Source of the DNA: Actinomycetota bacterium | GTDB lineage: Bacteria > Actinomycetota > AC-67 | Length of the DNA: 36,730 nucleotides | Direction: 5' to 3' | Assembly: GCA_040905475.1 (NCBI GenBank) | Contig: JBBDRM010000066.1 | Location: forward strand, 1 to 36,730 | Part shown: positions 4,368 through 34,604 of the stretch, piece after piece | Position numbering within the stretch: position 1 is the stretch's first letter | Layout: each line of letters opens with the position of its first letter | Notes under the pieces: generated by a model | What the model was told of the DNA's origin: nothing | Seen by the model: the letters and a program-made list of their open reading frames with translations, nothing else | Databases searched by the model: none | Position numbers and translations under genes: made by a program

Positions 4368-4408
4368 AGCCCTCTGACGGACTCGAACCGTCGACCCCCT
4401 CCTTACCA
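4368..4408 (-). repeat. attachment core A: tRNA-Thr(GGT) 3' half
   Basis: Forty-one bases that, on the minus strand, give tRNA positions 33-73 of a tRNA-Thr: anticodon GGT followed by AA, stem GGAGG, T-arm GACGG-TTCGAGT-CCGTC, acceptor AGAGGGC and discriminator T. The identical 41 bases occur at 10916 and 34564, and 36 of them at 8851. The 5' half of the tRNA is absent on the right side, so this is a duplicated att core, not a tRNA gene. Confidence 0.88.
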
Positions 4409-4515
4409 CGTCACGCGCGTGCATGAACGAACATTCGCGGCGCCGTTTCCGCTGCAAATCAGTCGGTTACCGGAAGTGGACATGCGTCGCGGGACGTCGC
4501 GCGTGTCGTTCTGAT

Positions 4516-4532
4516 GTGTCCGTTTTGTGTCC
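4516..4532 (+). repeat. right arm-type repeats of att core A
   Basis: GTGTCCGTTTTGTGTCC: two GTGTCC units 11 bases apart. The same block, preceded by a similar stretch (GACGTCGC.CGTGTCGT.TCTGAT), is found to the right of core B at 8991-9007. The unit is close to the reverse complement of the GTGGAC units left of the core, so core A is bracketed by inverted arm sites. Confidence 0.5.
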
Positions 4533-4579
4533 GCGTTCTGTCGCATGACCAGACAACGCGCGTCTCACCGGCGATCGGT

Positions 4580-4984
4580 TCAGGGAACGAGTTCGAACGC
4601 CGCGGCATGACGCGGTCGCACGGTGCCGAAGTGGCGGCGGTCGAGGGTGGCGATCTGCGTGGCCGTGAGCCGCTCGGCGATGGCGATCAGGCTTGCGTCG
4701 GTTCCGCTCAGTCCGAGGTCGGCGTACCTCTCGATCAGGTCGGCGATCCGGCGGCCATCCGCGGGCGTGAGCGGCTCGACTTGGAGCTCGCCTGCAGCGA
4801 CGGCGCGGAAGAAGGCTGCTTCCGCGGCGGCGCCGAGCTGCCGGCGGATCAGGTAGGCGGTCTCCGCAATCACGAGCGGCGTGGTGATGAGCGGACCTGC
4901 GCCCGCTACCGCCTGGGCGCAGGCCTCGTGATCGGGGTCGGCATTGTCGGCGGCCGCGAGCAGAACGCTCGTGTCGACGAGCAC
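4580..4984 (-). CDS. vapC: VapC-type PIN-domain toxin
   Basis: The toxin half of a type II VapBC module: a PIN-fold ribonuclease of 134 residues, expected to cut RNA (tRNA in characterised VapCs) when freed from VapB. PIN acidic residues are visible: Asp4 (MLVDTSVLL), Glu at ITTPLVIAETAYL, Asp at LSGTDASLIAIAERL, and Asp in ATLDRRHF near the end. The start is GTG at 4984, three bases after the vapB stop, so the two genes are co-translated. The pair lies downstream of the primase-helicase gene inside the 4.5 kb element between att cores A and B, where it could serve to stabilise the element. Confidence 0.92.
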   Translation of the reverse strand: MLVDTSVLLAAADNADPDHEACAQAVAGAGPLITTPLVIAETAYLIRRQLGAAAEAAFFRAVAAGELQVEPLTPADGRRIADLIERYADLGLSGTDASLIAIAERLTATQIATLDRRHFGTVRPRHAAAFELVP

Positions 4985-4987
4985 GCC

Positions 4988-5218
4988 TCAGTCTCGGCCG
5001 AAGCCGTCGGCTAGGAGGTCGTCGGTATCTCGGGCGTAGCGGCCGGAGGTTGACGAGCCGAGGCCGACGAACGAGAAGGTCCGCGGAGCGGCTGAGCTCT
5101 CAACGGGAAGGGCTTCCGCCAACTCCGCGATCACTAGGTCGATGCTGACGCCGCGTCGCGTCGCCTCGGCCTGCAGCCGCGCGAGCGCATCCTCGGGAAG
5201 ATCGATCGTGACGGTCAT
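4988..5218 (-). CDS. vapB: VapB-type ribbon-helix-helix antitoxin
   Basis: A 76-residue antitoxin. The N-terminus (MTVTIDLPEDALARLQAEATRRGVSIDLVIAELAEAL) is a ribbon-helix-helix DNA-binding domain: one strand followed by two helices. The tail (SFVGLGSSTSGRYARDTDDLLADGFGRD) matches the VapC-binding tails common in actinobacterial VapBs. Its ATG overlaps the TGA of the repaired primase-helicase frame (ATGA at 5215-5218), so antitoxin translation would be coupled to that gene if the frameshift were absent. It probably represses its own operon, although no separate promoter is obvious. Confidence 0.9.
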   Translation of the reverse strand: MTVTIDLPEDALARLQAEATRRGVSIDLVIAELAEALPVESSAAPRTFSFVGLGSSTSGRYARDTDDLLADGFGRD

Positions 5219-7580
5219 GCAGCCAGTATAGGAACGCTGAGCTGCGCTGAGGGCGCGGCGGCGGGCGACTGCCCGCTGGTGAATCCCAGCGTCTTGTAGG
5301 TGCTCAGGCGGCGGGCGTGCATTGCGCGCAGTACGGGGACGCGGACGTCGGCGTAGTCGTAGACGCGAACGCTGCGCTTGTTCTCGTGGGCGCGCATGAG
5401 CCGGCCGGTGTATTGGACGAGGCGGCCCTTGAAGGAGACGGGAAAGGCGAGGAAGAGGGTGTCGAGCTGGGGCAGTCGAAGCCCTCGCCGAGGTACTGGC
5501 CGGTGGCGACGACGGCGAGCGGCTCGTCCGGTGCCGAGCGCTCGATCCGGTCGAGGAGGGCGGTGCGTACGCGCTTGCCGAGACCGCCCTCCAGCACGAT
5601 CGGTTCCACGCCGCTGCTGTGCAACGCGTCAGCCAGGAGGGCGCAGTGCTCCCTCCATTGGCTGAGCACCAAGCAGCGTCGGCCCTCTGCGAGCGCGTCG
5701 ATCACGTCGTCGCAGACAAGCGTCCTGCGTCTTTGGTCTTGCACGAGCAGCCGGAACATCTCCTGGATCGGCGTCTCGGCGGCGCCGGCCGGCGCGAACG
5801 TCGTCTGGCGTACACGGAGTTCGAGGTCGATCTCTCCCGCCGGGCCTTCGCGCGTTCCGATCTGGTGGCGGATCGGTCCGCACTGCATGGCGACGATCTC
5901 CTGCAGACCGTCGCGACGGTAGGGAGTGGCGGTGAGGCCGAGAAAATGGCGGACCGGCGCGCGCCGGACCGCTGATTCGAACGAGAAGGCGGGTAGGTGG
6001 TGGCATTCGTCGATGACGACGAGCCCGTAGCCGGCGAAGAACGCTTCCAGGTCGTCGACTGCCTTCAGGCTCTGGATCATTGCGAGGTCGACGATCCCGG
6101 TGAGTTTCCGCCTGCCGCCGCCGCGCTGCCCGATCTGTTTCGAGGGGAGACCAAGCAGCGTCTGGAGCCGCGTCCGCCATTGCTCGAGCAGCGGCTTGCT
6201 GTGGGCGAGGATCAGCGTCGGCAGCTGGCGTTCCGCGATGAGCGCGCAGGCGATTACCGTCTTGCCGGCGCCGGGCGGGGCGACGAGCACGCCGCCGTCA
6301 TGTGCCAGCATCGCCACGACCGCCTGCTGTTGCTGAGGCGTCAACTCGCCGCGGAACTCGAGCGGCAACCGTTCGTGTGCCGGCCGGTGATCGTCGGTCA
6401 CAAGCCGGCTACCTGCAGCTGCGACCGCGTCCTCGACTTGGGCGAGCAGGCCACGCGGTAGGTGGAGGTGGGTGAGGTCTTCCTCGTAGCAACGGATCAG
6501 ACGTGGCGTCTGGTGGGTCGAGAGGCGCAGCCGCTGCCGCTCGTAGAAGAGCGGGTTGTGCAGCGAGGCAAGGTGTTTGAGCTTGGAAAGCAGCGACGGC
6601 GGCAGCGCGCCACGCGGAATGGCGAGATCGGTTGCGATCGCGCACGGCACTTCCTCGGGCACGCGCTCGTCATGCCGTGCCCGCCAGCGCGCAGATAGCG
6701 CTTCGAGGCCGAACGCGACCTCGTCGTGCTCGTCGAGAAGATGCTCGAGCCGTTGGCTCGAAACGCGCTCCAGCGAACTCAGGAATCCCCACTGGTCTGG
6801 CCACGGCTCCATCGTCTCCGGGTCGAGGAAGACACTCGTTTCGGCGACACGGCAGCGGCCTTGCAGCGGCAGCGCGATCAGGTTCCCGAACCCCTTCTGG
6901 GGCAGGAAGTCCTGGTTCGGGAACAGCCGGTCGTAGCTCGCGAGGTCCAGCTCGGCTCGGCGGCCGATCGCGTCCCGGAGCAGCAGTGCTCCCAGCCGCC
7001 GCGCCGAGGCAGCGCGGACAGGCGCTGAGAAGAAGATCCAGACGTGGCCGCCCTCGCCCGAGCGGCTGCGCTCGAGCGCGGCCGCCACCTTGCGCTCTGC
7101 GCACGCCTCGAGCAGGGCGAGCGCGTCGAGCTGCCACGTCTTGCCGTCGAGGTCGCACGCGAGGAACCAGCAGCTGTCGTCCTCGAGCAGCGGATAGACG
7201 CCGATCGACTCCCGTCCGTGAAGATGCCGCGCGATCGCCTCGTCGGTCAGCGGCAGGTACGTCCTCGGCCCGGTCTTCGTCCAGCCGCCGGCCGTTGCGG
7301 GCACGTAGCCGCTCTCTCCCGTGCGGGTGTTCTCCCAGCGCAGCGCGTAGACATCCTCGCGGCCGCGGAAGAGGCTCCGGATCAACGCGACCTTCTCGAC
7401 CGCGGAAGCACCGGAATCGAGGTGAGCCGGAGAGCGAGCGTCACCGTTCCCGGCATCGATGATCGCTCGCGTGTCTTGCGCGAGCGCGAGCAGCATGCGC
7501 AGCCTCTCGTTCTCGGCGCGCAGGCGCTCCAGTTCGCTCAGGGCCGCATCGAGCCGGTGCTGAAGGTCTTTTCCGGGCAT
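5215..7580 (-). pseudogene. TOTE-type primase / SF2 helicase fusion, frameshifted near its end
   Basis: A large protein of the kind annotated as a TOTE conflict system primase. It has an N-terminal leucine-rich coiled coil (about 10-35, LERLRAENERLRMLL), an archaeo-eukaryotic-type primase domain (about 65-260; CDLDG at 142-146 for the metal pair, GGHVWIFF at 177-184, FPNQDFLP at 220-227) and a superfamily 2 helicase domain. Helicase motifs are Walker A APPGAGKT at 434-441, DECH at 524-527 and TATP at 550-553. The frame breaks at a C run (5469-5472 on the plus strand): after GEGFDCP one C is missing. The other frame continues QLDTLFLAF…, VQYTGRLMRAHENK to a stop at 5215. The conserved C-terminal helicase motifs are therefore lost unless the base is a sequencing error. 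Start: ATG at 7580 is my choice; a frame to 7655 is possible. Its stop overlaps vapB. Confidence 0.85.
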
Positions 7581-7696
7581 GGCCGCGATCGGCGGGGACC
7601 CTAACGAGCGCGTCTGTCGGCACCCGCGGGCGCGGACGGCGGGCCGATGCGTCACCGTCAGGGCTGGAAGGGGGTCGCTATCGAGAGGAGGCTCTC

Positions 7697-8845
7697 ATGA
7701 TCCAACAGGGACAGGTCTTCAAGCTCGCATCCGTCGCGCGCGACGGCGGCGAGCTCTGGGCGTACCGCTTCCGGACCGGCGGACGTGACTCGAAACGGGT
7801 GCAACGCGGCGGCTTCAGGAGCGAAACGGACGCGCGGGCGGCGTTGGAACGCGCATTGGAGAAGTACCGGCGCGACAGCGGAGTGGGGAGAAGGATCACC
7901 CTCGCTGAGTTCGTCGACGAGTACCTCGCGCAACACGAGGTCTCGCCGGTAACGCTGGCGAAGCTGCGTTTCCTACTCAGCCGCGCGATACGAGCCTTCG
8001 GAGACCACTACCTCGACGAGCTCGACCCGGTCGACATCTCGGCGTGGCGGATGACCGTTACACCCGGCTACCGCTTCGAGGCCACCCAGGCGCTTCGCCA
8101 GGTGCTCGCCAGAGCGGTTGTATGGCGGCTGCTCGAAGTCAACCCCGCCAAGCAAGGCGTCGAGAACCCGCAGCGGCGGCGCACCGAGAAACGGCCATTC
8201 GAGTCGTGGGCGCAACTCGAGGCGCTCGCTAACCGACTCGGCCTGCGCCTCGGAGCGATGGTGCTCTTCGCCGCTGCGACCGGTATGCGACCCGGGGAAT
8301 GGGTCGCGCTCGAGCATCGGGACATCGACCGCGCCGGCCGCGTCGCCTACGTGAACCGCTCCTTCAGCAAAGGCCGCCTCACCCACCCGAAGACCGAGGC
8401 GAGCATCCGCGCCGTGCCGCTCCAGGCTCGCGCGCTCGCTGCGCTCGACCAGCTACCGCCTGGCGGCCCTGGCGACCTGCTCTTCCCCGCCGAGCGCCGC
8501 GGCTACCTCGACCTCCACAACTTCCGAAACCGCAACTGGAAGCCCGCCCAGATCGCGGCCGGGATCGAGCCCTTCCGCCGCATCTACGATCTCAGGCACA
8601 CCTTCGCGACCTTCGCGCTGCGTGCCGGTCTCTCAACCTTCGAGCTCTCACGCTACATGGGCGCCAGCCTGACCATGATCGACCGCCACTACGGCCACCT
8701 CGCCCGCGACGGCCGCGAGCACGCGATTCGGCTGCTCGACACCCTCAGTGCCGAGGTGGTGGACGTTCGTGGACGCCCGGTGGACGTCGAAACGCGCGAA
8801 TCGCGTCCGAGCAGACAACGAAAGCAGGCGCTGAGCAGGAGATAA
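7697..8845 (+). CDS. tyrosine recombinase (integrase 2)
   Basis: A 382-residue integrase with the same layout as integrase 1 and the same first ten residues. Catalytic residues: Arg198 (TGMRPGE), Lys232 (HPKTEAS), Arg300 (IYDLRHTFATFALRAG) and nucleophile Tyr332 (DRHYGHL). As in integrase 1, the HxxR histidine is Tyr (Tyr297) and the second histidine position is Ala323 (YMGAS). The ATG at 7697 follows AGAGGAGG. Core B begins six bases after the stop, so gene and att site are physically linked as in tRNA-targeting elements. It is divergent from the primase-helicase gene and, with it and vapBC, makes up the 4.5 kb element between cores A and B. Confidence 0.93.
   Translation: MIQQGQVFKLASVARDGGELWAYRFRTGGRDSKRVQRGGFRSETDARAALERALEKYRRDSGVGRRITLAEFVDEYLAQHEVSPVTLAKLRFLLSRAIRAFGDHYLDELDPVDISAWRMTVTPGYRFEATQALRQVLARAVVWRLLEVNPAKQGVENPQRRRTEKRPFESWAQLEALANRLGLRLGAMVLFAAATGMRPGEWVALEHRDIDRAGRVAYVNRSFSKGRLTHPKTEASIRAVPLQARALAALDQLPPGGPGDLLFPAERRGYLDLHNFRNRNWKPAQIAAGIEPFRRIYDLRHTFATFALRAGLSTFELSRYMGASLTMIDRHYGHLARDGREHAIRLLDTLSAEVVDVRGRPVDVETRESRPSRQRKQALSRR
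8759..8785 (+). repeat. left arm-type repeats of att core B
   Basis: Three GTGGAC units at 8759, 8769 and 8780, 10 and 11 bases apart, inside the 3' end of integrase 2. This is the same unit and roughly the same position relative to the core as the repeats left of core A. Helical phasing suggests protein binding on one face of the DNA. Confidence 0.5.
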
Positions 8846-8850
8846 GCGGA

Positions 8851-8886
8851 AGCCCTCTGACGGACTCGAACCGTCGACCCCCTCCT
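8851..8886 (-). repeat. attachment core B: tRNA-Thr 3' half
   Basis: Thirty-six bases identical to core A from the discriminator to the anticodon stem; it then diverges before the anticodon loop (GTAG instead of TACC). It lies six bases after integrase 2. The 120 or so bases to its right resemble those right of core A, including TTTCGCCTGCAAAT (8925-8938; TTTCCGCTGCAAAT at A) and the GTGTCC pair at 8991-9007. Elements beginning at A and at B therefore share a left-end sequence. Confidence 0.85.
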
Positions 8887-8990
8887 GTAGTCGTACACGC
8901 GCGATCATCTGCGACGCAGTTTCGCCTGCAAATTAGGCTGATCCGGACGCTGGAGATGTGCCGCGAGACGTCGCACGTGTCGTTTCTGAT

Positions 8991-9007
8991 GTGTCCGTTT
9001 TGTGTCC
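8991..9007 (+). repeat. right arm-type repeats of att core B
   Basis: GTGTCCGTTTTGTGTCC, identical to the block at 4516-4532, with units 11 bases apart. The stretch from here to about 9250 contains no supportable gene. Confidence 0.5.
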
Positions 9008-9252
9008 GTCAAGCGTTGCTTGCACAGCCAACATCACTGCGAGTCGACACGACAAGCGCGGCGCGAGCGGATGCTGTGCGGCGGCGAAGACATCCCAAGC
9101 TCGGTCGAGTGCCATGGGTCCTCTCCTGTCGACCGTCCGAACACGACGCTGAGTTTGGCTCGCAAGTTCGCGCACGTATGTGGTGTGCCGACACAGGTGC
9201 CCCTCCGCGGAAAGCAGGCGCGAGTTCGGCGTCGGCGTGGACGACTGCGTCT

Positions 9253-9837
9253 CGTCCAACCAGGGCTACCGGGATCGGGACCACGACCCGTCCCACGTCG
9301 TGGAGCCGCTCGCCGTTCCTCGCCGGGCTCGCCCCGGTCGCAACCGCCCACCACGAGCGACTCGACGGATCGGGCTACCACCGCGGGGCGGCGGCCGCGG
9401 CGCTCATACCGGCCGCGGATATTGGCCGTGGCCGACGCCTACCACGCCATGACCGAGCCGCGCCCTCACCGCCAGGCGCTGGCGCCCGAGCAAGCCTCAG
9501 AGACGCTGGGCCAGGAGGTACGCGCGGGGCGCCTCGACGCCGAAGCAGTCGCCGCGGTGCTTGCCGCCGCTGGCCGGCCCGTCCCCCGAATCGAGCGGCC
9601 CGCTGGTCTGACCGATCGCGAGGCCGAGGTCGTGGGGCTGCTCGCGCGCGGCCTACAGACGAAGCAGGTCGCGCACGCACTCGGGATCGCCGTCAAGACG
9701 GCCGACACACACGTCCAGCACGCCTACCGCAAGATCGGTGTCTCGACACGCGCGGTGGCGACGCGCTGTTCGCGATGCAGCACGGCCTAGCGGCATCGGG
9801 AGAACTCCCGATTGATCGCCGCGCCCGCCGCTCGTAG
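9253..9837 (+). pseudogene. HD-GYP / LuxR-type regulator remnant
   Basis: The 3' part of a gene for an HD-GYP phosphodiesterase-like domain joined to a LuxR-type helix-turn-helix, scattered over two or three frames. One frame gives SRSPFLAGLAPVATAHHERLDGSGYHRG (HD-GYP motif HHERLDGSGY). After a shift near 9410-9420 another gives RILAVADAYHAMTEPRPHR… and GLTDREAEVVGLLARGLQTKQVAHALGIAVKTADTHVQHAYRKIGVSTRA (LuxR helix-turn-helix). After a last shift near 9760 the first frame resumes with ALFAMQHGLA and stops at 9835-9837. The N-terminal part of the HD domain is not readable. Several shifts make real decay more likely than sequencing error. It lies in the 2.1 kb segment between att cores B and C. 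Confidence 0.75.
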
Positions 9838-9880
9838 CGCCTACGATGAGGAGACGCGAGCGACAGTTGAGGAGGAAACG

Positions 9881-10732
9881 ATGAGCACTCACGAGGTCGT
9901 GACCGCACAGGAGCTGGAGGAAACGCGTATCGCCTGGGACCGGATCGCCTCGGGCTACGACAGGAACGTCACCCCGACACACATGTGGCTGGGCAATGAA
10001 GGTCTGCGCCGTGCCCAGCTCCGTTCAGGGATGCGATTCCTCGATGTGGCGGCGGGCAACGGCGCCCTGAGCATCCCGGCGGCGCGCCTGGGCGCACAGG
10101 TCGTGGCGACGGACCTGTCCCCGGCCATGCTCGAGCAGCTCGCGGCGCGCGCGCGCAAGGAGGGGCTGGAGATCGAGACCCGCGTCATGGACGGTCACGC
10201 GCTCGACCTCGACAACGACAGCTTCGACATGGCCGGATCGCAGTTCGGGGTCATGCTGTTTCCCGACATGCCGAAGGGGATCAGCGAGATGGTGCGCGTC
10301 GTCAAGCCGGGCGGCCGCGTGCTGATGAACGTGTATGGCAACCCACATGAGATCGAGTTCTTAGGCTTCTTCGTGGCCGCTATCCAGTCCGTTCGCCCCG
10401 ACTTCGACGGCCCGCCCGCGGATCCGCCTCCGCTCCCGTTCCAACTGCAGGATCCCGAGAGGCTGCGAAGGGAGCTCGAGGTGGCCGGACTGAGAGACGT
10501 CGTCGTGGAGACGATCACGGAGAGCCTGGAGTTCGAGACCGGAAGAGAGCTCTGGGAGTGGCTCGTGTCGAGCAACCCGATCGCGGAAGGGATCCTCGGA
10601 GACCTGGGCATCTCCGATGACGAGCGGGTGGTGATCGAGCAGTCGCTGGAGCGACTGGTGCGCGAGCGCGCCGGTAGCAGCGAGAAGGCTGTGCTAACCA
10701 ACCCGATCAACATCGGCATCGGGACGAAGTAG
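9881..10732 (+). CDS. class I SAM-dependent methyltransferase
   Basis: A 283-residue Rossmann-fold methyltransferase resembling the UbiE/Methyltransf_11 group. An N-terminal helix (IAWDRIASGYDRNVTPTHMWLG) precedes motif I FLDVAAGNGALSIPAARLG. Motif II has ATDLSPAMLEQL (Asp binding the ribose) and motif III RVMDGHALDLDNDSFD; the post-core region is VVKPGGRVLMNVYG. The substrate cannot be deduced; small-molecule targets are usual for this group. The ATG at 9881 has a strong ribosome site (GAGGAGG, 8 bases upstream), so an earlier in-frame start at 9812 is unlikely. It is intact although it sits between a pseudogene and att core C, perhaps as element cargo. Confidence 0.88.
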   Translation: MSTHEVVTAQELEETRIAWDRIASGYDRNVTPTHMWLGNEGLRRAQLRSGMRFLDVAAGNGALSIPAARLGAQVVATDLSPAMLEQLAARARKEGLEIETRVMDGHALDLDNDSFDMAGSQFGVMLFPDMPKGISEMVRVVKPGGRVLMNVYGNPHEIEFLGFFVAAIQSVRPDFDGPPADPPPLPFQLQDPERLRRELEVAGLRDVVVETITESLEFETGRELWEWLVSSNPIAEGILGDLGISDDERVVIEQSLERLVRERAGSSEKAVLTNPINIGIGTK

Positions 10733-10915
10733 CCGCGCCCTACGCCCGACGCGTGAGTTCCGCTTCGGGGTGAGTAGCTCTGGTCGGGTTCGGGCGGATC
10801 GAACGGGTGATGGGTTCCGGCACTCCACCCCGCGTACCGCAGATGTGTCCGAAATGTGTCCGCATGTTTAACAAACAGACACCAAGATAGTGCCCATTTG
10901 CAGGTACTTTAGCTA
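10733..10915. promoter_or_regulatory. arm-type repeats left of att core C
   Basis: No gene. GTGTCC units at 10845-10850 and 10856-10861 (GTGTCCGAAATGTGTCC), 11 bases apart, match the blocks right of cores A and B. Next come ACAAACAGACACC and CCCATTTGCAGGTACTTT (10893-10910), the latter also seen near 1952 and 34542. The whole stretch reads as the end of an integrated element whose integrase gene has been lost. Confidence 0.5.
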
Positions 10916-10962
10916 AGCCCTCTGACGGACTCGAACCGTCGACCCCCTCCTTACCATGGAGG
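10916..10962 (-). repeat. attachment core C: tRNA-Thr(GGT) from the anticodon stem to the 3' end
   Basis: The same 41-base core as A and D, plus six more bases of tRNA. On the minus strand it gives a complete anticodon arm, CCTCC-ATGGTAA-GGAGG, with anticodon GGT in the loop. This identifies the target tRNA. Beyond 10962 there is no D-arm or 5' acceptor strand. To the right, ATTCGCGG and GGCCGTTTCC…CTGCA recur from the right flank of core A with about 30 extra bases between them. It marks the left limit of the 23.6 kb defence-rich island that ends at core D. Confidence 0.87.
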
Positions 10963-11252
10963 ATTCGCGGTGCGACTGCCGTGGGCGGGAATCGCGCTCG
11001 TGAGGCCGTTTCCCCTGCATTCTCTGCTGTTCAGGCGCTAAGCATCACCTGCCTCGGAGACCCCTGAGTCGCCTTCAGTATCCCCGCACCTGTCCCCAGA
11101 ACCCATCCCCAACGGCGGCTCGGTCACGTGCCTGGTCACGCGCGTCGCGGAGCGCGTGATCCAAGGTCCCTGCGCGCTCAACTCTTCCAGAGGCGGGAGC
11201 TTCCGGCGACCTCCCGCGTGATATCTGCGGGATGGAGTGTTGTCTTGATTGG

Positions 11253-11745
11253 CGACGTGCGGGACGTTTTGCGGCATGCGCGTACCAGTCGAAGCGAGGG
11301 TCGCGCACTCGAGATCGCCGCCGCGGGCTCGCACAACCTGCTCCTCATGGGCCCTCCCGGAACGGGGAAGACCATGCTCGCCCGGCGGCTGCCGGGCATC
11401 CTTCCCAGGCTGACGCGCGAGGAGGCGCTCGAGGTGACGCGCATCCACTCGGTCGCCGGCCTGCTCCCCCAAGGGCAGACGCTCGTTGCGGTGCCGCCCT
11501 CTCGCGCTCCTCATCACGGAGCCTCCGCTCCGGCGATCGTCGGCGGCGGCCCGACCCCTCGGCCCGGCGAGGTCTCGCTCGCACATCGCGGAGTCCTGTT
11601 CCTCGACGAGCTGCCGGAGTTCCCGCGGCCGGCCCTCGAGTCGCTCAGGCAGCCGCTCGAGGACGGATTTGTCGCGGTCGCGCGCGTGGGCGGGCATGCG
11701 ATCTTTCCGGCCCGCTTCCAGCTCGTAGGAACGGTCAATCTCTGA
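11253..11745 (+). pseudogene. comM: comM (YifB/Mg-chelatase-like ATPase) internal fragment
   Basis: About 165 codons of the central AAA+ domain of a ComM/YifB protein, which in other bacteria is a helicase promoting branch migration during transformation. It contains [36 protein letters not shown] (Walker A), [17 protein letters not shown], the [17 protein letters not shown] segment and [28 protein letters not shown] (Walker B). It ends at [13 protein letters not shown] and then a stop, where the full protein would continue with the MNPCPCG zinc region. The family is about 500 residues long, so both ends are missing. It is a scar, probably carried in or cut off by an integration event near core C. 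Confidence 0.88.
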
Positions 11746-11983
11746 GTTTTTCGGCGTCATCCGTCCCGTGGCAGAGACGTAGCTCCTCGCGAGTGTGTCT
11801 GGTGCCAAACCCGGTTCTCCCTGCAAATCGGCCTGACCAGTGGCGCGAACGGAGTTTTGGCACCCCACAGGTCAGTTCTCGATTTTGGAGGTGAGCTCCG
11901 CACGGAGCTCTCGCCGGCAAGCTACGCCGACCGTTGTCAGAATGCGGAAAAATCTCGCCTCCGTGTCAGCGGAATGACCAGTC
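11746..11983. other. intergenic stretch after the comM fragment
   Basis: No gene seen. At about 11819-11837 the run CCCTGCAAATCGGCCTGACC resembles the sequences right of cores A (GCTGCAAATCAG) and B (GCCTGCAAATTAGGCTGATCC). This suggests another leftover of an element left end. No terminator hairpin is evident for the convergent genes here. Confidence 0.3.
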
Positions 11984-13102: not shown

Positions 13103-13139
13103 GTGCGCGCTCCTCCGCTTGCCCGTCGCGCGGCTCGTG

Positions 13140-15190: not shown

Positions 15191-15252
15191 GGTGACCAGC
15201 TTACTTCCTCAGCACTTCCAGCGCTAGGAACGTTATATCATCAATCCTTCCT

Positions 15253-15276
15253 AAATACCTCATCAAATACCTCATC
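15253..15276 (+). repeat. perfect tandem 12-mer in the divergent promoter region
   Basis: AAATACCTCATC occurs twice head to tail. The surroundings (15220-15300) are the most AT-rich stretch for kilobases, between the divergent merR-receiver and STAS starts. The position suits a regulator-binding site or promoter element for one or both operons; the MerR-type protein encoded next door is the obvious candidate binder. Confidence 0.55.
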
Positions 15277-15281
15277 GTAAG

Positions 15282-27448: not shown

Positions 27449-27483
27449 GGTGCATTCTCAAAGAATGATGGCCTGCGCCCAAG

Positions 27484-27648
27484 ATGACCGACGTCCGCCT
27501 TCGCCTCCATCCCGCGGACCGACCCCGGCGCGCGCTCGTCGATGTCGTGTTCGCGCGCGGGGGGCCCTATCGCGGAGCGGCCTGCTGGAGTAGGTCGCTT
27601 CTCGCGAGCGAGCACGCCTTGATGATCGGGGCGTTCGAGCCAGCCTGA
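27484..27648 (+). CDS. small hypothetical ORF (54 aa)
   Basis: An ATG-to-TGA frame (MTDVRLRLHPADRPRRALVD … HALMIGAFEPA) with G/C in almost every third codon position, lying in the gap between qatA and the TIGR02391 gene and divergent from qatA. There is no good ribosome site and no known domain. It may be a remnant of a larger gene. Confidence 0.3.
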   Translation: MTDVRLRLHPADRPRRALVDVVFARGGPYRGAACWSRSLLASEHALMIGAFEPA

Positions 27649-28476
27649 CTAGGCTTGGCTGATGGGTGCGGCGGGGGTGACGTGAGCCGCATCGAGGCGA
27701 CGATGAAGCATCGAGGCGAGAGTCAGAAGATCCAGCGCGTCCTCGAGTCCGATGGGCCAGCTGATCTTCGGGGCGTGAGCGGTTGTGTTGCGGAACGTCC
27801 CGAACATGCCTTTCACCAACATCGCCAGGCCCTTGTGCTCGCTCTCCTCCGTCGGCGACTGGAGCAGGTTGAACGCCAACGCCGGCATCCCACCCTTTAT
27901 GCCAAACGCGTCGTCGACGAGTTGGCCGCCGTCGCTCTTGAGGCCAGTCCTAGTGCGGATCTTGTCGGCGACGCTTTTCGTCGCCTCGAAGACAGCATGG
28001 AAGTAGTTCCTTTGCACGAGCTCGGCACGGCAGAAAGCGAGTACGTCGGGATGTACGTTGCGCTCGCGAAGCTTCGCCTTCAGTGCGTTCGCCCGCTCTT
28101 GCGCCTCGGTAAGCGTGGTCGTCGGCGCTGCCGGATAGAGCTTGCCGTTCTCACGCAGTTCGAGACCGACGAAGCCCAGCGTTAAGTTGAGCCCCTCGCG
28201 GTGTGCCTCGAAGCGCTCCGGCTCGCTGCCAAACCGTTCCGGCGCCATCGCCACTTTGATGAAGCGGCAGACGGCGTTGGCGTTGCTGTCTTGGTTCTGT
28301 CGAGATGCGAGCGATTCGTACAGGCGCTTCCACTTCGTGCTCTGTTGCGAAGTGTCGGCGATGCTGGCCGCCGGCAGCAACCGGTCCATCTGACTGCCGG
28401 TCATGGCCTCGCCGAGTTCGCGACACAGCGCTTCGAGCTGACCGGCCGTGAAGGGCGGAACCGTCTTGTGAGGCAT
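27649..28476 (-). CDS. TIGR02391/Ymh-domain protein
   Basis: A 275-residue protein. The last 130 residues match the TIGR02391 (Ymh) domain pattern: VHPDVLAFCRAELVQRNYFHAVFEATKSVADKIRTRTGLKSDGGQLVDDAFG, then MPALAFNLLQSPTEESEHKGLAMLVKGMFGTFRNTTAHAPKI and EDALDLLTLASMLHRRLD. The RN-TAH motif recalls HEPN-like RNases (RX4-6H), which would make it a toxin-like RNase; that link is inference. The N-terminal part (QLEALCRELGEAMTGSQMDRLLPAASIAD …) resembles the TIR-less abortive-infection N-termini that often precede this domain. The start is ATG 28476; the longer frame to 28746 has poor codon use and overlaps the divergent gene. It sits between Qat and the small cassette, probably a defence gene. 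Confidence 0.82.
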   Translation of the reverse strand: MPHKTVPPFTAGQLEALCRELGEAMTGSQMDRLLPAASIADTSQQSTKWKRLYESLASRQNQDSNANAVCRFIKVAMAPERFGSEPERFEAHREGLNLTLGFVGLELRENGKLYPAAPTTTLTEAQERANALKAKLRERNVHPDVLAFCRAELVQRNYFHAVFEATKSVADKIRTRTGLKSDGGQLVDDAFGIKGGMPALAFNLLQSPTEESEHKGLAMLVKGMFGTFRNTTAHAPKISWPIGLEDALDLLTLASMLHRRLDAAHVTPAAPISQA

Positions 28477-28657
28477 GTCGAGCACGCTAGCGCCTACCCC
28501 AGGGAGAGGCCCTGTGTGGTCGAGCACGCAGTCCAAGCTCTTGCCTCGCGCTCGAGCTTCGAGCGTCCCTGAAGCCAAGACCTGCACACGTAGTCCTGGC
28601 TGCGCCCGCTCTTCGCCTCCTTCAGTCTCCATCCGGTGGGCGACGTACGTTCCTCGG

Positions 28658-28993
28658 GTGGTTAGAGACGCAGATGTCGTGCTCGCGACCTTGGGGGCCA
28701 CAACGGCGCTCGCAGGGTTCACGCTCGTCTTCCTGGGTGTCGTCATTACGCGCTACGAGGAGACGATCCCGGGTGCGTCCGTACGTGTGCGAAGCCGCTT
28801 CGTCGGTCCAGCGGGGGAACTCCTTGGCGCATTTATGCTGGGCCTGGCAACCGTCGGTATGAGTTTCGCGTGGCTCGTCGCACGTGGCGGACACGGCTTC
28901 TACGTTGTTGTCGTCGTTCTGTTCGCGGTTCAGATCGTCTCGACTGCGCTCGCGTCCGGACACGTGACGCGGGGTGTCCTACGGAAGACGTGA
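28658..28993 (+). CDS. small membrane protein, three predicted TM segments
   Basis: A protein of about 111 residues, if started at GTG 28658, with hydrophobic stretches at about 9-30 (VLATLGATTALAGFTLVFLGVVI), 56-73 (LLGAFMLGLATVGMSFAWLV) and 80-97 (GFYVVVVVLFAVQIVSTAL). The frame is open upstream to 28475, but that part has poor codon bias and overlaps the divergent TIGR02391 gene start, so I exclude it. The start is therefore uncertain. It heads a tight run of three plus-strand genes. A small TM protein next to short helical partners is the layout of many membrane-effector defence cassettes, but no known family is recognised. Confidence 0.65.
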   Translation: MVRDADVVLATLGATTALAGFTLVFLGVVITRYEETIPGASVRVRSRFVGPAGELLGAFMLGLATVGMSFAWLVARGGHGFYVVVVVLFAVQIVSTALASGHVTRGVLRKT

Positions 28994-29000
28994 GGTCACG

Positions 29001-29318
29001 TTGGCGCTCAACGCAACAAAGTCAAAGCGACTTGAGGACGCTGGCCTAGATCAGTACTTCGATCAGCACCGCGCGCTCTGGGATCAGAAGGCGCGTCGCG
29101 CTCATGACTACGCGAAGGCGTTCGTGGTCGAGAGCGGCGAGGAGGTCCGACAGGACGACGTCGTGCCGCTGCTCGTGCCAGCACTCGAAGTGTTCGACGA
29201 CTTCAGAGACCATCTCGCAACTCAGAAACTGACGCAGAAGTACTGGTACACGTACTTCGCCGAACTCATCGTCGATCGGCTTTGGAGAGAACTCACCGAT
29301 CAGGAAGGAGGAGCATGA
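29001..29318 (+). CDS. hypothetical helical protein
   Basis: A 105-residue all-helical protein rich in aromatic residues (LDQYFDQHRALWDQKARRAHDYAKAFV … TQKLTQKYWYTYFAELIVDRLWREL). The middle segment (GEEVRQDDVVPLLVPALEVFDDFRDHL) could be a helix pair for binding a partner. No family name known to me. I start it at TTG 29001 behind GAGGT, because the GTG at 28974 would overlap the previous gene by 20 bases and adds residues of poor codon use; either is possible. Its TGA overlaps the next ATG (ATGA at 29315-29318), so it is co-translated with it. Confidence 0.65.
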   Translation: MALNATKSKRLEDAGLDQYFDQHRALWDQKARRAHDYAKAFVVESGEEVRQDDVVPLLVPALEVFDDFRDHLATQKLTQKYWYTYFAELIVDRLWRELTDQEGGA

Positions 29319-29500
29319 AACGCGACATTCGGGCTCTGGCAACCAAGTACATCGATGAGGTGATCAAAGACCAACAGGAGCTCGGCTACACCGATGTCGT
29401 GGCCGCCGCTACACGTGAAGCGGCCATCGGAGATGCCGAGGCGGCTCTCGGCGAGCTAGCCGCGAGCACGACCGACTCGACAAAGGCGGTTGCCGCGTAG
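29315..29500 (+). CDS. small hypothetical protein (61 aa)
   Basis: Starts at ATG 29315 with a very good ribosome site (AGGAAGGAGGA) and overlaps the previous stop. The product (MKRDIRALATKYIDEVIKDQ, then helix TDVVAAATREAAIGDAEAALGELAAS) is a charged helix pair with an acidic or neutral tail, the size of an antitoxin or regulatory subunit. No known domain. With the preceding helical protein and the membrane protein it forms a coupled three-gene cassette. Confidence 0.7.
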   Translation: MKRDIRALATKYIDEVIKDQQELGYTDVVAAATREAAIGDAEAALGELAASTTDSTKAVAA

Positions 29501-29504
29501 GTAG

Positions 29505-29750
29505 ATCCGCCGGTGCTCTTTCGTCGACGCCGAGTGGTCGCTGTGTCGGCGAACCTATCCGCTCGGCGGCGTCGGTCGAGGAGCCCCGGCGAACGGCTGC
29601 GTCCTACCAGGGCCGCTCTCGCCCGACCACGTGCAGACGCTCGCGAACAATGTCGCAGCGGCACTCCGGTCGCCTTACGCGGAGCGCAACGTGCCACGAG
29701 TCTCGCGTCCCGACTGTTCCCGGCTCTCGCCGACTCGCTCATTCGGTTGA
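29505..29750 (+). other. codon-biased open frame without a start
   Basis: From just after a TAG (29502-29504) a plus-strand frame runs to a TGA at 29748-29750. It has strong G/C third-position bias and plausible protein content (FVDAEWSLCRRTYPLGGVG … LSPDHVQTLANNVAAALRSPYAERNVPR), but no usual start codon before its middle. It overlaps the end of the convergent ATPase gene by 12 bases. It is either a 5'-truncated gene piece or a fourth member of the small cassette whose start is damaged. Confidence 0.3.
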
Positions 29751-32700
29751 CGGCGACGTCGACCTTCCGCTGCTCACCTCATTGGGCTTCGACGTTGCTG
29801 CCGAGGTCGGGAAGACGTATTCCAAAGCTTCGGCTTCGCGGACGCCGCCAAAGGTGAGATCGTTGCGGAGGCGAAGCGGGAGTCGTGCGAGCGGGTCGAA
29901 GATGAAGCGCACCCGAAGCTCGCCGGCGCCCTCCTCGAGGCCGGCGACGACCGCGAGGAAGAAATCGTGGTCAGTTCTGGCGCGTTCGACCTCGTTCGGC
30001 GTCAGCGTGATCTCGTTCGGGATCTCGTTTCCCGACGACATCTTGATCTCGAAGCACTGGCGCAGTTCGTCGATCGCATCGGCGCCGACTCCGCGTCGGT
30101 GACGGAGATCGGCTACCTCGCCATCCCCGAGCGCGAGCGCAGCCATCACAGCGTCGTATGCGAGCTGCTCTCGCGCGCTCATCGGCGGCAGCACGCTTGG
30201 CGGCACCGGCGCGCCGATATCCGTCGTCCTTCCGTCTGGGTCGTCGCTGGTGGTCGTGCCGGTCTTCGGCGGCGTGCCGTCGCCGGTTATCGTGCGCTTT
30301 CGGGGCGGTGGAACGATGATCCCGCCGCGTGGAGCCCCCGCATTGACGATCGTCCCCTGCGACGGCTCGAGCTTGTCGATCTCCTTCAGCTTGCGCACCT
30401 TGACGCCGCCGACGCCGTTGGACGTCGTGCCGGCGGCCGGTTTTTTGGTCGTCTTACCCCTGCGGGTGCGTCGATCGTCGGCCTGGGTACGCAGATGAGC
30501 GAGCCGATCGTCCTCGGCTTCGTCCGCGTTGCCGTCGCTCGAGAGGACGATCTTCTGGGCTCCGAGACCGCTCTCGGCCTTCTGCCACATCGCCACCCAC
30601 GCCCACGCGACCTTTTGCCGGTCGCCGTTGAACAGGTCTGCGATCGCGCGGCCACCACCTTCGGCCGAACCGACGTCTTCTGCGGACCGGGCGAACAGCG
30701 TCAGCGGTTGCCGGAGCAGGTGCGCCTCGGCCGGCGCGACAAGCCGGCGACCGCCGGGGACGGTCGCCGCGACCTCTAGATCACGGTCGAGAACAAGGAG
30801 CGCCGCTGCGAGCTCGTCCCAGGCGACGGTCAGCGTCTCGTAGAGCGTCTGGTCGCGGCGGGCGAGCTCGGTGCGGAGGTGCTCGACCGCGAGCACGAAC
30901 CGCGGCCGGAATTCGTCGCCGACGGCCGCGCCGTAGCCGGCGTTCGCAACCGGCATGAACTGCTCCGCACCGATCAGCGTGAGCCCGAGCGCCTCGATCA
31001 GCGATTCCATGTCGTCGATGGCGAATCCGGGCTGCCAGACGCGTGCTTGATCGGCGACTGCGCCGGCCACCGCTTCGTCCGCGATCGCGTACACGGGTCG
31101 TCGTGTTGTCCACTCCTCGCCAGTCCAGACGGGAAGCGACCGCAACGTCGCGCGCAGTTGCGGGGTCGCATCTCCGAGCGCGCGAGCCAGTGTCCGCATC
31201 GTCTCGATGATCACCGGACGATCGCCATCGCCAAGTGGCCCGTCGTCTGCGATGTCGCGCAGGACCGCGACGCAGTCTCGTGCCTCGGGAAGCGGGATCT
31301 GGAGGGTCCGCCAGAGCGGTTCGAGCAGCGACGTGTTCGCAACGAACGGCCGCCGGCGTCCGAAGATCGGCGGCCCGCTCAGCACCTGCGCCGGCGCGTA
31401 CCAGCGACCGTTGATCAAGAGCAGCCCGCGCGCGCGCCCGCCGCGGCCGCCGGCGAAGTGCGACCGTAGCGCGGCGACCGTCATGTCGTCGACCGGTCGC
31501 TGGCCGCGGCCATCCGCCGGGCAGGCGAGTGCAAGGATCCGGTACGCCGTCCGCGTCTGCTCCTCGATCGATGCCCGGGTCTTGCCGGCGTCGCGTAGCT
31601 CTTCGAGCCGGGCGACGATGCTCGTCGCCGACGGGCCGCGTCTGATTCGCAGCGCCGGCAACGCAGGACTCCGCAGCACGTGGTCATCGACGCGCATCAG
31701 GTACAGGCTGCGTTTGTCGCCGACCGTCAGACGGTTTGCCTCGCTTGGGAGGTGCAGGTCGAGCGGTGCGTGCAGTGCGCCGGTTGCGCACGGAAGCCAC
31801 GGTTCGGATGCGGCTCGAGCGAGCCAGGTCGCTAGCACCTCGCCGCGGGCGTGCCAGTAGCCGTCGTAGCCCCAGACCGCCTGCGCGGTCGCGTGATCGG
31901 CGAACTGACGCTCCCAGCCGCGCGCCACGAGCCCGAGAAGTGCGCTTGCCCGTCGTTTGCGGCCTGTGCCCGGTCGGTCAGCCTTGATGTTCTCGATCAC
32001 TGCGTCCAGATCCGGCGACCAGCGGTCGTCGATCAGATGGGTGGCGCGTTGGTTGAGCGCGCGCAGCTCGGTCGCCTGCACCTCGGGGAGGCGCCACTGT
32101 TCGAGTGGGCTCACGAGTCGCGGGTCGCGGCTGTAGCGCTGGATCTCGTTCGGGGGCCGCACTAGGCGCGGGAACGTCTGCACCCCAAGCCGCGCGAGCA
32201 GACGCTGTGCGCCGAGTTCGCGTCGACCGCCGGCGCGTTTGAGCACCAGCCTGTAGTCAGGTGATACCCAGGTGAGCTGCGGCGTCTTGCCGGCGGCACG
32301 CGCGAAGCTGTCGGTCTCGCGGTCGATCTGCGGTGGCAGATAGGCCGTGCTCGGGGAGACCCAGAGCGGCTCGGTCTTACCGCGGTCGTCGTAGCGGAAG
32401 CCCCGAAGCTCGATCGCTCGGCCGATCTTCGGTCCGAGCTCGCGTTGCTCGTCGTCGCTGAGTCGCTCGAAGGCGTCGCGGAGGGAGAGGAGCGGGCCGT
32501 CGTCGAGCGGGATCGGCTCACGCCTCCCGCGCGCAAGCAAAGCGAGCGCTTCGCCGTCGGAGTCGTACGCGCCGACAAGCAGCTTTTCCTCCTCGAGCTC
32601 GCTGCGCACGCGGCGTGCCATCTTGTCGCCGCCGAGGTAGACGGGGTGGATGGCGAGGGTCAAGCCGAGCTGCGAGGCCAGGCTTTGCGGTTCGTCACGA

Positions 32701-34340
32701 ACGACCAGCGACCGGGGTTCATCCGGGCGCGGCGGCGCGACGCGCGTTCCGTCAGCAAGCATGACGCCGCGCCTATCGCAGAACTTGCCGAACACCCCAT
32801 CCTCGACCGCGGCTGCGGCGAACGCCACATACCACTGTGGTTGACGCTCCCCGAGCTCGGCGTCGTCGAGCTCGAGCAGCTCGAGCGCTTCTTCGACATC
32901 GAGCAGCTGTGAGCGTCCGAGCTCTTGCAGGACGCGTCGCCAGCGACCGAACCGGTCGCGCTGCGTAGGAGGAACAGCCGAGAACCCGTCTGCGAGTCGT
33001 TCCTGGTCGCTCCCGGTCAGGACGCCGTCGAGACCTGAGTCCTCGAAGACGATCTCGTCGAGCGGCTGCGGCGCGTCTTCCCGCCCCAGCCGAAGCTCGT
33101 CGGCGAGGCGGAGATGACAGCGGCCGATCACGTCGAACAGGAACCGCTCGCGCAGCCATTCGCTGATCCCGTCGGGAACGTCGTGCAGCAGCGGCACCGC
33201 ACCCCAGGCACGTCGCGCGTCGTGGCTAAACAGCTCGAGTGCGACAGCGGCGAGCAGATCGCCGAGCTCGGCGAAGCGGTGCGCATTCCAGGCCCGCTCA
33301 TGCAGGGTCGAGCGTGCGGTGTCGGGGTCGAACTGCGCGTTGAGGCCTACAGGCAAGTTGGATGCAACCGGCAGCGGCAGCCGGTCGTACAGCAGCCCCT
33401 GTTCGGGCCGCCGAGGTACGCAGATGCCGAGTGTGGTCGTCGGCCCGGTAGCCTTGTTGTGCCGGCGCTCGTCCGCCTTCAACGGAATCTCGACCAGGTA
33501 GCGCGAGTAGGTCTGGCTCCGGTCACGATCCGTGAGCTCGACGACCTCGACCTCGAGCTCGCGCCCGTGAAGCTGGAGCTGCGCCATGCGGCGCTGCCGT
33601 GCGTGGAGCTGATGGTCGACGACAGCGGAGCCGCGTTTCAGATCGATCTGCGCGACGCGCCGGATGCTTCGCAGGAAGACGAGCGAGCGTGTGCCGAGCT
33701 CGGTCATGAACTGCTCGAGCGCCGCCGTGTCGACCTCGTCGTCGAGCGGTACGACGAGCAGCGTCTCGCTGGCCGAGGGGTCATAGAAGCCGTCGATCGC
33801 CGGCTCGGGCGGGCAGGGGGCCGGTACCTCGCCCATGCGGAAGTGGTAAGGATGGCAGTGTGCGTCGATCGGACCGCCGAGCGCGCGCAGCGTCTTCTGG
33901 CCGATCCCGAACCTTCCGGAGGCGCTCGGGTCGTCGGCTTTTGTGCTCACCCAGGGAAGCACCATCGCGCCGACATGCGCCAGTGAGATCGGTGCCCCAT
34001 TGTGGACGATCAGCAGCTCCCGGCGCGGCCCCTTCACGCGTAGCGCGACCCGGAGCTCAGTGGCGCCGAGGTCATCGCCGTTCTGTATCGACTCGACGAT
34101 GCCCTGGAACGGGCGGGCGCTCAAGCTCTCTGCGCCGCGTTCGGATCCGCGGCGGCTCGCCTGCAATAGTGCCGGCTGGTCTTCGATCAGCTCCGCCAGC
34201 CGCTCAATCGCGGCCGCCGCGAATTCCGGCGAGGCGAGATCGGTCAAGCCGTCCATCTCCGGCCAGCTATGAGCGAGGTGCTCAGCCGCCTTCCGGCCAA
34301 GCTGGGCGTCTGTCGTGGTGGCTGCCGAGGGTTCCGTCAC
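29739..34340 (-). CDS. sacsin/NO VEIN-like ATPase with a C-terminal nuclease-like domain
   Basis: A 1533-residue protein. The N-terminus is a GHKL/Hsp90-type ATPase: N-box PFQGIVESIQNGDDLGATEL (Glu83, Asn87, Asp90) and G-box SGRFGIGQKTLRALG at about 141-155, as in sacsin-type proteins. About 1200 residues without recognisable motifs follow, rich in Arg and Asp pairs. A basic, low-complexity linker then begins (KTTKKPAAGTTSNG … PPPRKRTITGDG). Last is a domain resembling the NO VEIN C-terminal domain (DUF3883): ELRQCFEIKMSSGNEIPNEITLTPNEVERARTDHDFFLAVVAGLEEG, with an E-x-K of the PD-(D/E)XK type. It starts at GTG 34340 with no clear ribosome site. Proteins with this architecture occur in bacterial defence islands; function and trigger are unknown. 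The gene is intact and stands alone, 220 bases left of att core D. Confidence 0.8.
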   Translation of the reverse strand: MTEPSAATTTDAQLGRKAAEHLAHSWPEMDGLTDLASPEFAAAAIERLAELIEDQPALLQASRRGSERGAESLSARPFQGIVESIQNGDDLGATELRVALRVKGPRRELLIVHNGAPISLAHVGAMVLPWVSTKADDPSASGRFGIGQKTLRALGGPIDAHCHPYHFRMGEVPAPCPPEPAIDGFYDPSASETLLVVPLDDEVDTAALEQFMTELGTRSLVFLRSIRRVAQIDLKRGSAVVDHQLHARQRRMAQLQLHGRELEVEVVELTDRDRSQTYSRYLVEIPLKADERRHNKATGPTTTLGICVPRRPEQGLLYDRLPLPVASNLPVGLNAQFDPDTARSTLHERAWNAHRFAELGDLLAAVALELFSHDARRAWGAVPLLHDVPDGISEWLRERFLFDVIGRCHLRLADELRLGREDAPQPLDEIVFEDSGLDGVLTGSDQERLADGFSAVPPTQRDRFGRWRRVLQELGRSQLLDVEEALELLELDDAELGERQPQWYVAFAAAAVEDGVFGKFCDRRGVMLADGTRVAPPRPDEPRSLVVRDEPQSLASQLGLTLAIHPVYLGGDKMARRVRSELEEEKLLVGAYDSDGEALALLARGRREPIPLDDGPLLSLRDAFERLSDDEQRELGPKIGRAIELRGFRYDDRGKTEPLWVSPSTAYLPPQIDRETDSFARAAGKTPQLTWVSPDYRLVLKRAGGRRELGAQRLLARLGVQTFPRLVRPPNEIQRYSRDPRLVSPLEQWRLPEVQATELRALNQRATHLIDDRWSPDLDAVIENIKADRPGTGRKRRASALLGLVARGWERQFADHATAQAVWGYDGYWHARGEVLATWLARAASEPWLPCATGALHAPLDLHLPSEANRLTVGDKRSLYLMRVDDHVLRSPALPALRIRRGPSATSIVARLEELRDAGKTRASIEEQTRTAYRILALACPADGRGQRPVDDMTVAALRSHFAGGRGGRARGLLLINGRWYAPAQVLSGPPIFGRRRPFVANTSLLEPLWRTLQIPLPEARDCVAVLRDIADDGPLGDGDRPVIIETMRTLARALGDATPQLRATLRSLPVWTGEEWTTRRPVYAIADEAVAGAVADQARVWQPGFAIDDMESLIEALGLTLIGAEQFMPVANAGYGAAVGDEFRPRFVLAVEHLRTELARRDQTLYETLTVAWDELAAALLVLDRDLEVAATVPGGRRLVAPAEAHLLRQPLTLFARSAEDVGSAEGGGRAIADLFNGDRQKVAWAWVAMWQKAESGLGAQKIVLSSDGNADEAEDDRLAHLRTQADDRRTRRGKTTKKPAAGTTSNGVGGVKVRKLKEIDKLEPSQGTIVNAGAPRGGIIVPPPRKRTITGDGTPPKTGTTTSDDPDGRTTDIGAPVPPSVLPPMSAREQLAYDAVMAALALGDGEVADLRHRRGVGADAIDELRQCFEIKMSSGNEIPNEITLTPNEVERARTDHDFFLAVVAGLEEGAGELRVRFIFDPLARLPLRLRNDLTFGGVREAEALEYVFPTSAATSKPNEVSSGRSTSPSTE

Positions 34341-34474
34341 ACCATCAGGATTGCAGCCTCGAGGAGTGAACGAGTAGCCGCCGTTCGTCGCTGCGAGTTT
34401 GGCGGTTTTGCCAGAGCATCCGACCGCGTCTCAGGCCGCTGTTCGACCTCATTACGTGCGTCGTGGACCTGAAA

Positions 34475-34493
34475 GCTCCATAAACGGCTCCAT
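34475..34493 (+). repeat. left arm-type repeats of att core D
   Basis: GCTCCATAAACGGCTCCAT: two GCTCCAT units 12 bases apart, 70 bases left of the tRNA core. The same unit, in the same orientation, is repeated right of the core at 34725-34742. It differs from the GTGGAC/GTGTCC units of cores A-C, so a different integrase family is implied. Confidence 0.5.
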
Positions 34494-34563
34494 ACCCTAT
34501 GCACCCCGGAACATATGCAAGTGGATCCGAGTGGAAAAGGCCCCATTTGCGGCGACTTTGCAG

Positions 34564-34604
34564 AGCCCTCTGACGGACTCGAACCGTCGACCCCCTCCTT
34601 ACCA
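34564..34604 (-). repeat. attachment core D: tRNA-Thr(GGT) 3' half
   Basis: Identical over 41 bases to cores A and C (tRNA positions 33-73 on the minus strand). The sequence just left (CCCCATTTGCGGCGACTTTGCAG) resembles that left of core C. The D-arm half of the tRNA is again absent on the right. It bounds the 23.6 kb island that starts at core C. A complete tRNA-Thr gene is not in the window and should lie outside it. Confidence 0.88.

Follow-up and report, generated by a model that had tools for sequence, protein, structure and literature searches.

The 36,730-nt stretch analysed here (the window) is the entire contig C66 of a 4.24-Mb, 173-contig draft genome of an Actinomycetota bacterium (97.4% complete, 4.4% contaminated). 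With a probability of about 0.88, it comes from inside a tandem accretion array in which small integrative elements have gathered at the tRNA-Thr(GGT) gene of Gaiellales. The sequence GCCCTCTGACGGACTCGAACCGTCGACCCCCTCCT was found as an exact match at positions 4369, 8852, 10917 and 34565, in a single orientation in the window; the number of matches expected by chance was 0.00, and none of 100 shuffles reached four. A preliminary description, made from the sequence alone, had proposed four copies of a tRNA-Thr(GGT) 3' half in one orientation with unequal segments of 4.5, 2.1 and 23.6 kb between them. Both statements were confirmed, since the copies were exact over 35-40 nt and the core-to-core spacings were 4483, 2065 and 23648. 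The strand-corrected core is TGGTAAGGAGGGGGTCGACGGTTCGAGTCCGTCAGAGGGC, and its four copies were as follows:

4369..4408, minus strand: core A, 40 nt, the tRNA-Thr(GGT) 3' half from the anticodon loop to the acceptor end, matching the 3' half of the relatives' intact tRNA-Thr(GGT)
8851..8886, minus strand: core B, 36 nt, with the anticodon loop replaced
10917..10961, minus strand: core C, 40 nt, extended by the 5' strand of the anticodon stem (CCTCC)
34565..34604, minus strand: core D, 40 nt

The 40 nt were common to cores A, C and D, as was a left flank of about 25 nt. To their right, cores A and B had a common flank (79% identity across about 165 nt that include the core), and no significant match was found between the right flank of core C and those of A and B; the shared right flank initially attributed to A, B and C was therefore retained only for the first two. 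Contigs C44 and C159, which belong to this draft bin as well, had three more core copies between them; none of these was an intact gene, and all seven copies were letter-perfect over 35-40 nt. ARAGORN detected no tRNA around any of the seven. No complete tRNA was found in the window, so no core copy has the tRNA 5' half, as had been proposed. A search of the window against Rfam gave no match. The array was truncated at both contig ends.

The origin of the core became clear from relatives. The core scan took one genome per species and used the exact 36-nt pattern. It returned 66 stretches, nearly all from metagenome-assembled genomes (MAGs) named Thermoleophilia, Gaiella, Gaiellaceae or Actinobacteria. 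Among 79 sites, the bin's own copies included, 30 were intact tRNA-Thr(GGT) genes with the 5' half GCCCTCTTAGCTCAGTTGGTAGAGCACCTCCATGGT and 49 were fragments. The core was thus the 3' half of the intact gene, written GCCCTCTTAGCTCAG...tRNA-Thr(GGT), of Gaiellales-type MAGs (30 loci). The identity of the fragments to the tRNA stayed at 94-98% as far as TGGTA, dropped to 83% one base further and fell to 31-54% over the several bases after that. This drop indicates that the shared unit begins at the anticodon loop, which corresponds to subsite A of Islander (PMC4383910). The edge at the anticodon loop was sharp in 48 fragments and in two near-identical junction pairs, which places the crossover subsite within the tRNA, as Islander demands. 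On contigs with both kinds of site, the intact tRNA came first, and the fragments lay 3' of it and shared its strand. An intact gene together with displaced fragments, the combination required by Islander, was found in four genomes:

Gaiella FR_16, single 3.28-Mb contig: intact tRNA-Thr and 2 fragments
palsa_556, contig C14: intact tRNA-Thr and 4 fragments
LS_ISSM_2_bin.116: intact tRNA-Thr and 1 fragment
Ca. Gaiellasilicea: intact tRNA-Thr and 2 fragments

Up to nine cores per genome were counted when 3 or fewer mismatches were allowed, and contigs with 3-5 cores recurred among the relatives. Tandem arrays, defined by at least three same-orientation cores with differing content between them, were therefore present both in the window (A-D) and in relatives. 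Some fragments had T-stems that were changed yet still paired, e.g. CGCGG/CCGCG, which would fit copying from functional tRNA genes of other hosts. In Ca. Gaiellasilicea (contig C153, 9077-9149), the intact tRNA-Thr had the T-stem TCCGG/CCGGA, unlike the two fragments downstream of it; this mismatch fits a later element having replaced the tRNA 3' half. One genome of another family (locus L061) carried a lone core with an altered T-stem and an ATGGAGC-like arm, without a tRNA, in which the anticodon loop was flanked by the inverted repeat CCCCCTCCT/AGGAGGGGG.

The integrases of the window and the elements between its cores were as follows:

3135..4349, plus strand: IntA, full-length tyrosine integrase (PF00589 Phage_integrase, 2.5e-12), ending 19 nt from core A
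7697..8845, plus strand: IntB, full-length tyrosine integrase (PF00589 Phage_integrase, 1.2e-13), ending 6 nt from core B
4369..8886: element B-A, 4.5 kb, with IntB, a TOTE-type primase-helicase and a PIN toxin-like gene
8852..10956: element C-B, 2.1 kb, with a LuxR-type remnant and a methyltransferase
10917..34604: element D-C, 23.6 kb, the defence segment

The position of cores A and B directly downstream of an integrase gene was thus verified. The gene IntC44 of contig C44 was related to IntA and IntB (all with about 55% identity to IntA), and a frameshift was found in IntC159 of contig C159. Homologues of IntA (68% and 80%) lay 25 and 31 nt from the intact tRNA-Thr in FR_16 and JAICTB010000097, and at the next core of FR_16 a homologue of IntB (82%) lay at 23 nt. 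Two further integrase relatives in one genome (G100) were located at tRNA-Asp and tRNA-Val, where the gene converged on the tRNA 3' end in the same geometry. No integrase relative was found in viral contigs, and among phages and plasmids all integrase matches were below 60% identity, the best being about 31%. A tyrosine integrase within the island, another Islander requirement, was found in B-A and in the element left of A; in D-C and C-B, none was detected by profile search or among the open reading frames (ORFs) scanned with Pfam, very short ORFs being left out. An integrase was not detected in 14 of the 22 core-to-core segments on the contigs that were examined.

Three kinds of repeat pair occurred at near-fixed distances from the cores, and in a total of 314 kb of sequence, 29 of the 36 pairs lay within the roughly 7% near cores. 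GTCCAC pairs stood beside integrases at +100 (and +190) from the core. For ATGGAGC pairs, the distances were about +105 and from about -133 to -143, and for GGACACA pairs, -121 to -144 or +90. These pairs may represent the arm sites of the integrases. The pairs in the window were as follows:

4287..4303, minus strand: GTCCAC pair, +100 from core A
4197-4213, minus strand: second GTCCAC pair, +190 from core A
8769..8785, minus strand: GTCCAC pair, +101 from core B
4515..4532, minus strand: GGACACA pair, -129 from core A
8990..9007, minus strand: GGACACA pair, -121 from core B
10844..10861, minus strand: GGACACA pair, +90 from core C
34475..34493, minus strand: ATGGAGC pair, +106 from core D
34725..34742, minus strand: ATGGAGC pair, -143 from core D, the end of a further element beyond D

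Segment C-B had GGACACA pairs at both ends. The ATGGAGC pair to the right of core D suggests that another element abuts D, and the array therefore probably runs past the right end of the window.

Whole elements were found to differ in their arrangement between genomes. The 4.5-kb IntB/TOTE element recurred between cores in FR_16: positions 4946-6978 and 7706-8692 of the window matched its core-bounded second element at 80-81%. In FR_16 an IntA-like element adjoins the tRNA and the IntB element comes next, and the order in the window is reversed. Two pairs of loci revealed the junctions themselves. Up to the core, loci L077 and L127 had 99.93% identity across 1462 nt; beyond it, the 5' half of the intact tRNA followed in one locus and unrelated DNA in the other. 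Loci L100 and L102 had 99.95% identity across 5596 nt and differed in their left neighbours, and in both pairs the break was exactly at the core edge. The members of each pair came from different MAGs. Mis-binning of these MAGs is possible; two distinct junctions exist either way. Elements of 99.9% identity with different left neighbours indicate recent recombination.

These findings bear on two other explanations of the cores. According to the first, the cores are a dispersed tRNA-derived repeat, similar to a short interspersed nuclear element or a repetitive extragenic palindrome, which spread by copying, and the integrases are adjacent by chance. Cores C and D, one core of contig C159 (C159b) and many cores of relatives indeed had no adjoining integrase, and some cores were located away from tRNA-Thr. 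However, such a repeat would not account for the single orientation on each contig with the tRNA at the 5' edge, for integrases 6-31 nt from the core, for arm pairs at fixed distances or for the movement of whole core-to-core segments between genomes with breaks at the core edge. This explanation is highly improbable and has already been largely refuted. The second explanation is that the array arose a single time and no longer changes, its elements being decayed and without current movement and its cores being fossils. The frameshift in IntC159, the split of the IntA-like gene of FR_16 over two frames, the partly degraded flanks of C and C159b and the lack of a detected integrase in C-B and D-C speak in its favour. 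On the other hand, the full length of IntA and IntB, the seven letter-perfect cores and the nearly identical elements with different left neighbours in different MAGs argue against it, and it is considered unlikely.

Repeated integration at one tRNA-Thr(GGT) by elements sharing junction cores, as put forward in the preliminary description, was strongly supported by the relatives, namely by the same-strand fragments after the intact tRNA, the integrases 25-31 nt from it, the rearranged elements and the breaks at the core edge. On sequence comparison, the identity of core and tRNA, the geometry, the fixed arms, the core-bounded rearrangement and the junction breakpoints can be regarded as established; integrase activity, excision, the assignment of integrases to the segments they move and the route between cells are presumed. 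Each element would carry a copy of the tRNA from the anticodon loop to the 3' end as its attP core, flanked by the arm-type repeat pairs. A tyrosine integrase would recombine core with core within the anticodon loop, and the target may be either the intact gene, which insertion would restore, or a fragment left by an earlier insertion. Because recombination would occur at the tRNA or at an older fragment, fragments would pile up on its 3' side in one orientation. Element B-A and the element left of A carry their own integrases, IntB and IntA, and D-C, with its defence genes, and C-B would have lost or never had one; the latter two are probably best read as cis- or trans-mobilizable modules.

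Several observations weigh against this interpretation. An intact tRNA-Thr with the sequence of the core, which had been predicted just outside the window, was absent from the whole assembly: the contig ends on both sides, and fragments are present, as in the four relatives listed above, but the intact gene, which those relatives have, is neither on the contig nor in the bin. The bin's own tRNA-Thr(GGT), GCTGGCG...CGCCAGC, is a different sequence and is followed 11 nt on by tRNA-Met in an uninterrupted locus. In addition, palsa_556 had Thr cores on contig C24 (at about 162.7 and 140.9 kb) as the borders of a segment of 21.8 kb, which lay 136 nt downstream of tRNA-Lys within a cluster of tRNA-Glu, tRNA-Val and tRNA-Lys genes. 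Cores on such long contigs away from tRNA-Thr mean that not every copy sits at the tRNA-Thr locus. Finally, all relatives are MAGs (FR_16 being single-contig), in which mis-binning is possible.

Because the bin's tRNA-Thr(GGT) differs in sequence and is uninterrupted, the array cannot have formed at that gene, and the contig is probably Gaiellales DNA in the bin. Where Gaiellales loci extended far enough upstream, tRNA-Tyr in most cases preceded tRNA-Thr on the same strand, and the 3' flanks of tRNA-Thr differed, with little in common beyond integrases. No intact Thr-Met pair that could serve for an empty-site comparison was found in Gaiellales loci; the uninterrupted Thr-Met arrangement was seen only in the bin's own class. 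Among the 30 intact-gene contigs, 13 ended at most 0.8 kb downstream of tRNA-Thr and one at most 0.8 kb upstream; contig ends near tRNA-Thr are expected because repeats break assemblies. Contig C119, which ends at a tRNA-Tyr, was considered as the missing locus and ruled out, the bin's tRNA-Tyr being of its own class type. Likewise, a 160-nt sequence shared at 96% identity by the edges of contigs C66 (1-160) and C44 (locus L007, 8032-8192) was rejected as a contig join and represents a shared left-edge repeat, where the assembly broke at shared element sequence.

Contigs C66, C44 and C159 are thus probably mis-binned Gaiellales contigs in a bin of another actinobacterial class. The alternative is that the contig truly belongs to the bin organism and that the array entered as one block from a Gaiellales donor, landing away from any tRNA-Thr gene. 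The completeness of the bin (97%) with a contamination of only 4.4% and the cores away from tRNA-Thr in palsa_556 are consistent with such a transfer. Against it, every 8-kb piece of the three core-bearing contigs was nearer in tetranucleotide profile to Gaiellales loci (0.118-0.160), a reference set itself rich in mobile DNA, than to the bin (0.159-0.220). For the comM remnant at 11.3-11.7 kb, identity was 74-78% with Gaiellales comM and 69% with the bin's own. The glycosyltransferase gene at the right end had a counterpart in MAG AC_19 with 92% identity, and a coreless contig of Ca. Gaiellasilicea carried the restriction and Qat block (16.2-27.4 kb) at 89-95% identity. No match to window positions 17000-36730 was found in four same-family genomes, and among five genomes of the same order and class the core was absent outside the bin. 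No conserved context of the right-end glycosyltransferase, which would have marked that end as chromosomal, was found in four relatives. A block transfer would itself yield some of these Gaiellales-like signals. Mis-binning is the likeliest reading of the contig's ownership, and transfer as a block is rather unlikely. The same core or an intact Gaiellales-type tRNA-Thr was also observed in MAGs labelled Acidobacteria, namely L090 and L129 (JAGWRZ, Acidobacteriota REEB338) and L105 (QHWF, Acidobacteria gp6 AA50); these contigs are likely mis-binned or mislabelled.

The cargo of the elements included the following genes:

4580..4984, minus strand: PIN-domain (VapC-like) gene (PF01850, 1.1e-18)
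5304..7655, minus strand: TOTE-conflict primase (AEP-TOTE) with helicase (PF22548, 3.9e-82)
11128-11745: comM fragment (Mg chelatase family), a chromosomal gene remnant inside D-C
16232..22026, plus strand: DpnII/MboI-like nuclease gene and type I restriction genes, HsdM-like (16846-18660) and HsdR (18982-22026)
22838..27448, minus strand: anti-phage system QatA (25643-27448), QatB (24936-26261), QatC (23593-25017) and QatD (22838-23512)
27649..28746, minus strand: PD-Lambda-3_B-like defence protein (Hypoth_Ymh)
29739..34340, minus strand: TmtA-like defence protein, 1533 aa (PADLOC TmtA, 1378 bits)

The type I genes (16846-22026) had no separate HsdS, and the C-terminus of the HsdM-like protein gave a short specificity-like match. 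Since the Ca. Gaiellasilicea copy of the restriction-Qat block lies on a coreless contig, this block also occurs outside the D-C segment. No relaxase or type IV secretion genes, by which integrative and conjugative elements (ICEs) and integrative and mobilizable elements (IMEs) are recognised, were found among the Pfam-scanned ORFs of the window, whose elements are possibly cut by the contig ends. Segments D-C and C-B possess both flanking attachment (att) sites and have no recombinase or transfer genes among the ORFs scanned; without a detected integrase, they look like cis-mobilizable elements (CIMEs). On contig C159, ThiF-like (weak BilD) and JAB-like (weak BilC) genes were observed at 8484-11113, 11655-12671 and 14486-15271, with a DprA-like gene and a proteasome-like gene near; a ubiquitin-like conjugation system adjoining a core is possible. 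Between two cores of this contig (4103-7984), PEP-utilizer/PPDK-type kinase genes and an EryCIII-like glycosyltransferase were found, possibly an antibiotic-modifying cargo.

Tandem accretion at a tRNA is of a known kind; the place (Gaiellales) and the member are new. No earlier description in Gaiellales was found in the open-access literature, which is not proof of absence. In the tandem accretion of ICEs, IMEs and CIMEs of the ICESt1 type, an att site already in place can serve a newly arriving element, and integrase-less segments keep both att sites (PMC5704250). As in the window, elements with a common attachment core stack at the 3' end of one gene (PMC5704250); the differences are the host group, the tRNA-Thr target and the lack of recognised conjugation or mobilization genes in the scanned ORFs. 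The layout of the Dehalococcoides ssrA islands, with more than 12 direct repeats of the gene 3' end downstream of it, is almost the same; some of those islands have integration genes at one edge, and 15 do not, which is comparable to the 14 of 22 integrase-less segments described above (PMC3146451). There, the tmRNA gene, serine recombinases and reductive dehalogenase cargo are involved, whereas here these are tRNA-Thr, tyrosine integrases and phage defence. Islander islands share the tyrosine integrase, the intact tRNA gene with a displaced 3' fragment and the crossover in anticodon-loop subsite A (PMC4383910). Tandems of at least three occurred in only 4 of the Islander cases (PMC4383910), whereas contigs with 3-5 cores recur here, and the many integrase-less segments would be rejected by the Islander filter. 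Tycheposons of Prochlorococcus and Methylophilaceae (PMC10872708) are likewise tRNA-bordered cargo islands with a tyrosine recombinase, and their cargo is metabolic, unlike the defence cargo of the window. Another Methylophilaceae island has recurring 20-bp repeats of the tRNA-Lys 3' end (PMC10872708).

The array accounts for the breaks that many MAG contigs show directly downstream of tRNA-Thr, and it is a warning that binning may assign arrays of this kind to the wrong organism. The exact att cores, arms and integrases are now testable, and near-identical junction pairs from different MAGs are in hand. A broader proposal, which is tentative and rather doubtful, is that the 3' half of the Gaiellales tRNA-Thr might be a community-wide exchange site, somewhat like integrons shuffling cassettes: integrase-less modules with standard arm pairs (ATGGAGC or GGACACA, each at a set distance from the core), multi-system defence blocks among them, might be moved in trans by a resident compatible integrase, so that defence modules would be reshuffled between species at the core. 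It may be concluded that in Gaiellales, an order of soil bacteria with few cultured members, tRNA-Thr(GGT) is a hotspot of recurrent integration, and that the array in the window carries defence cargo.

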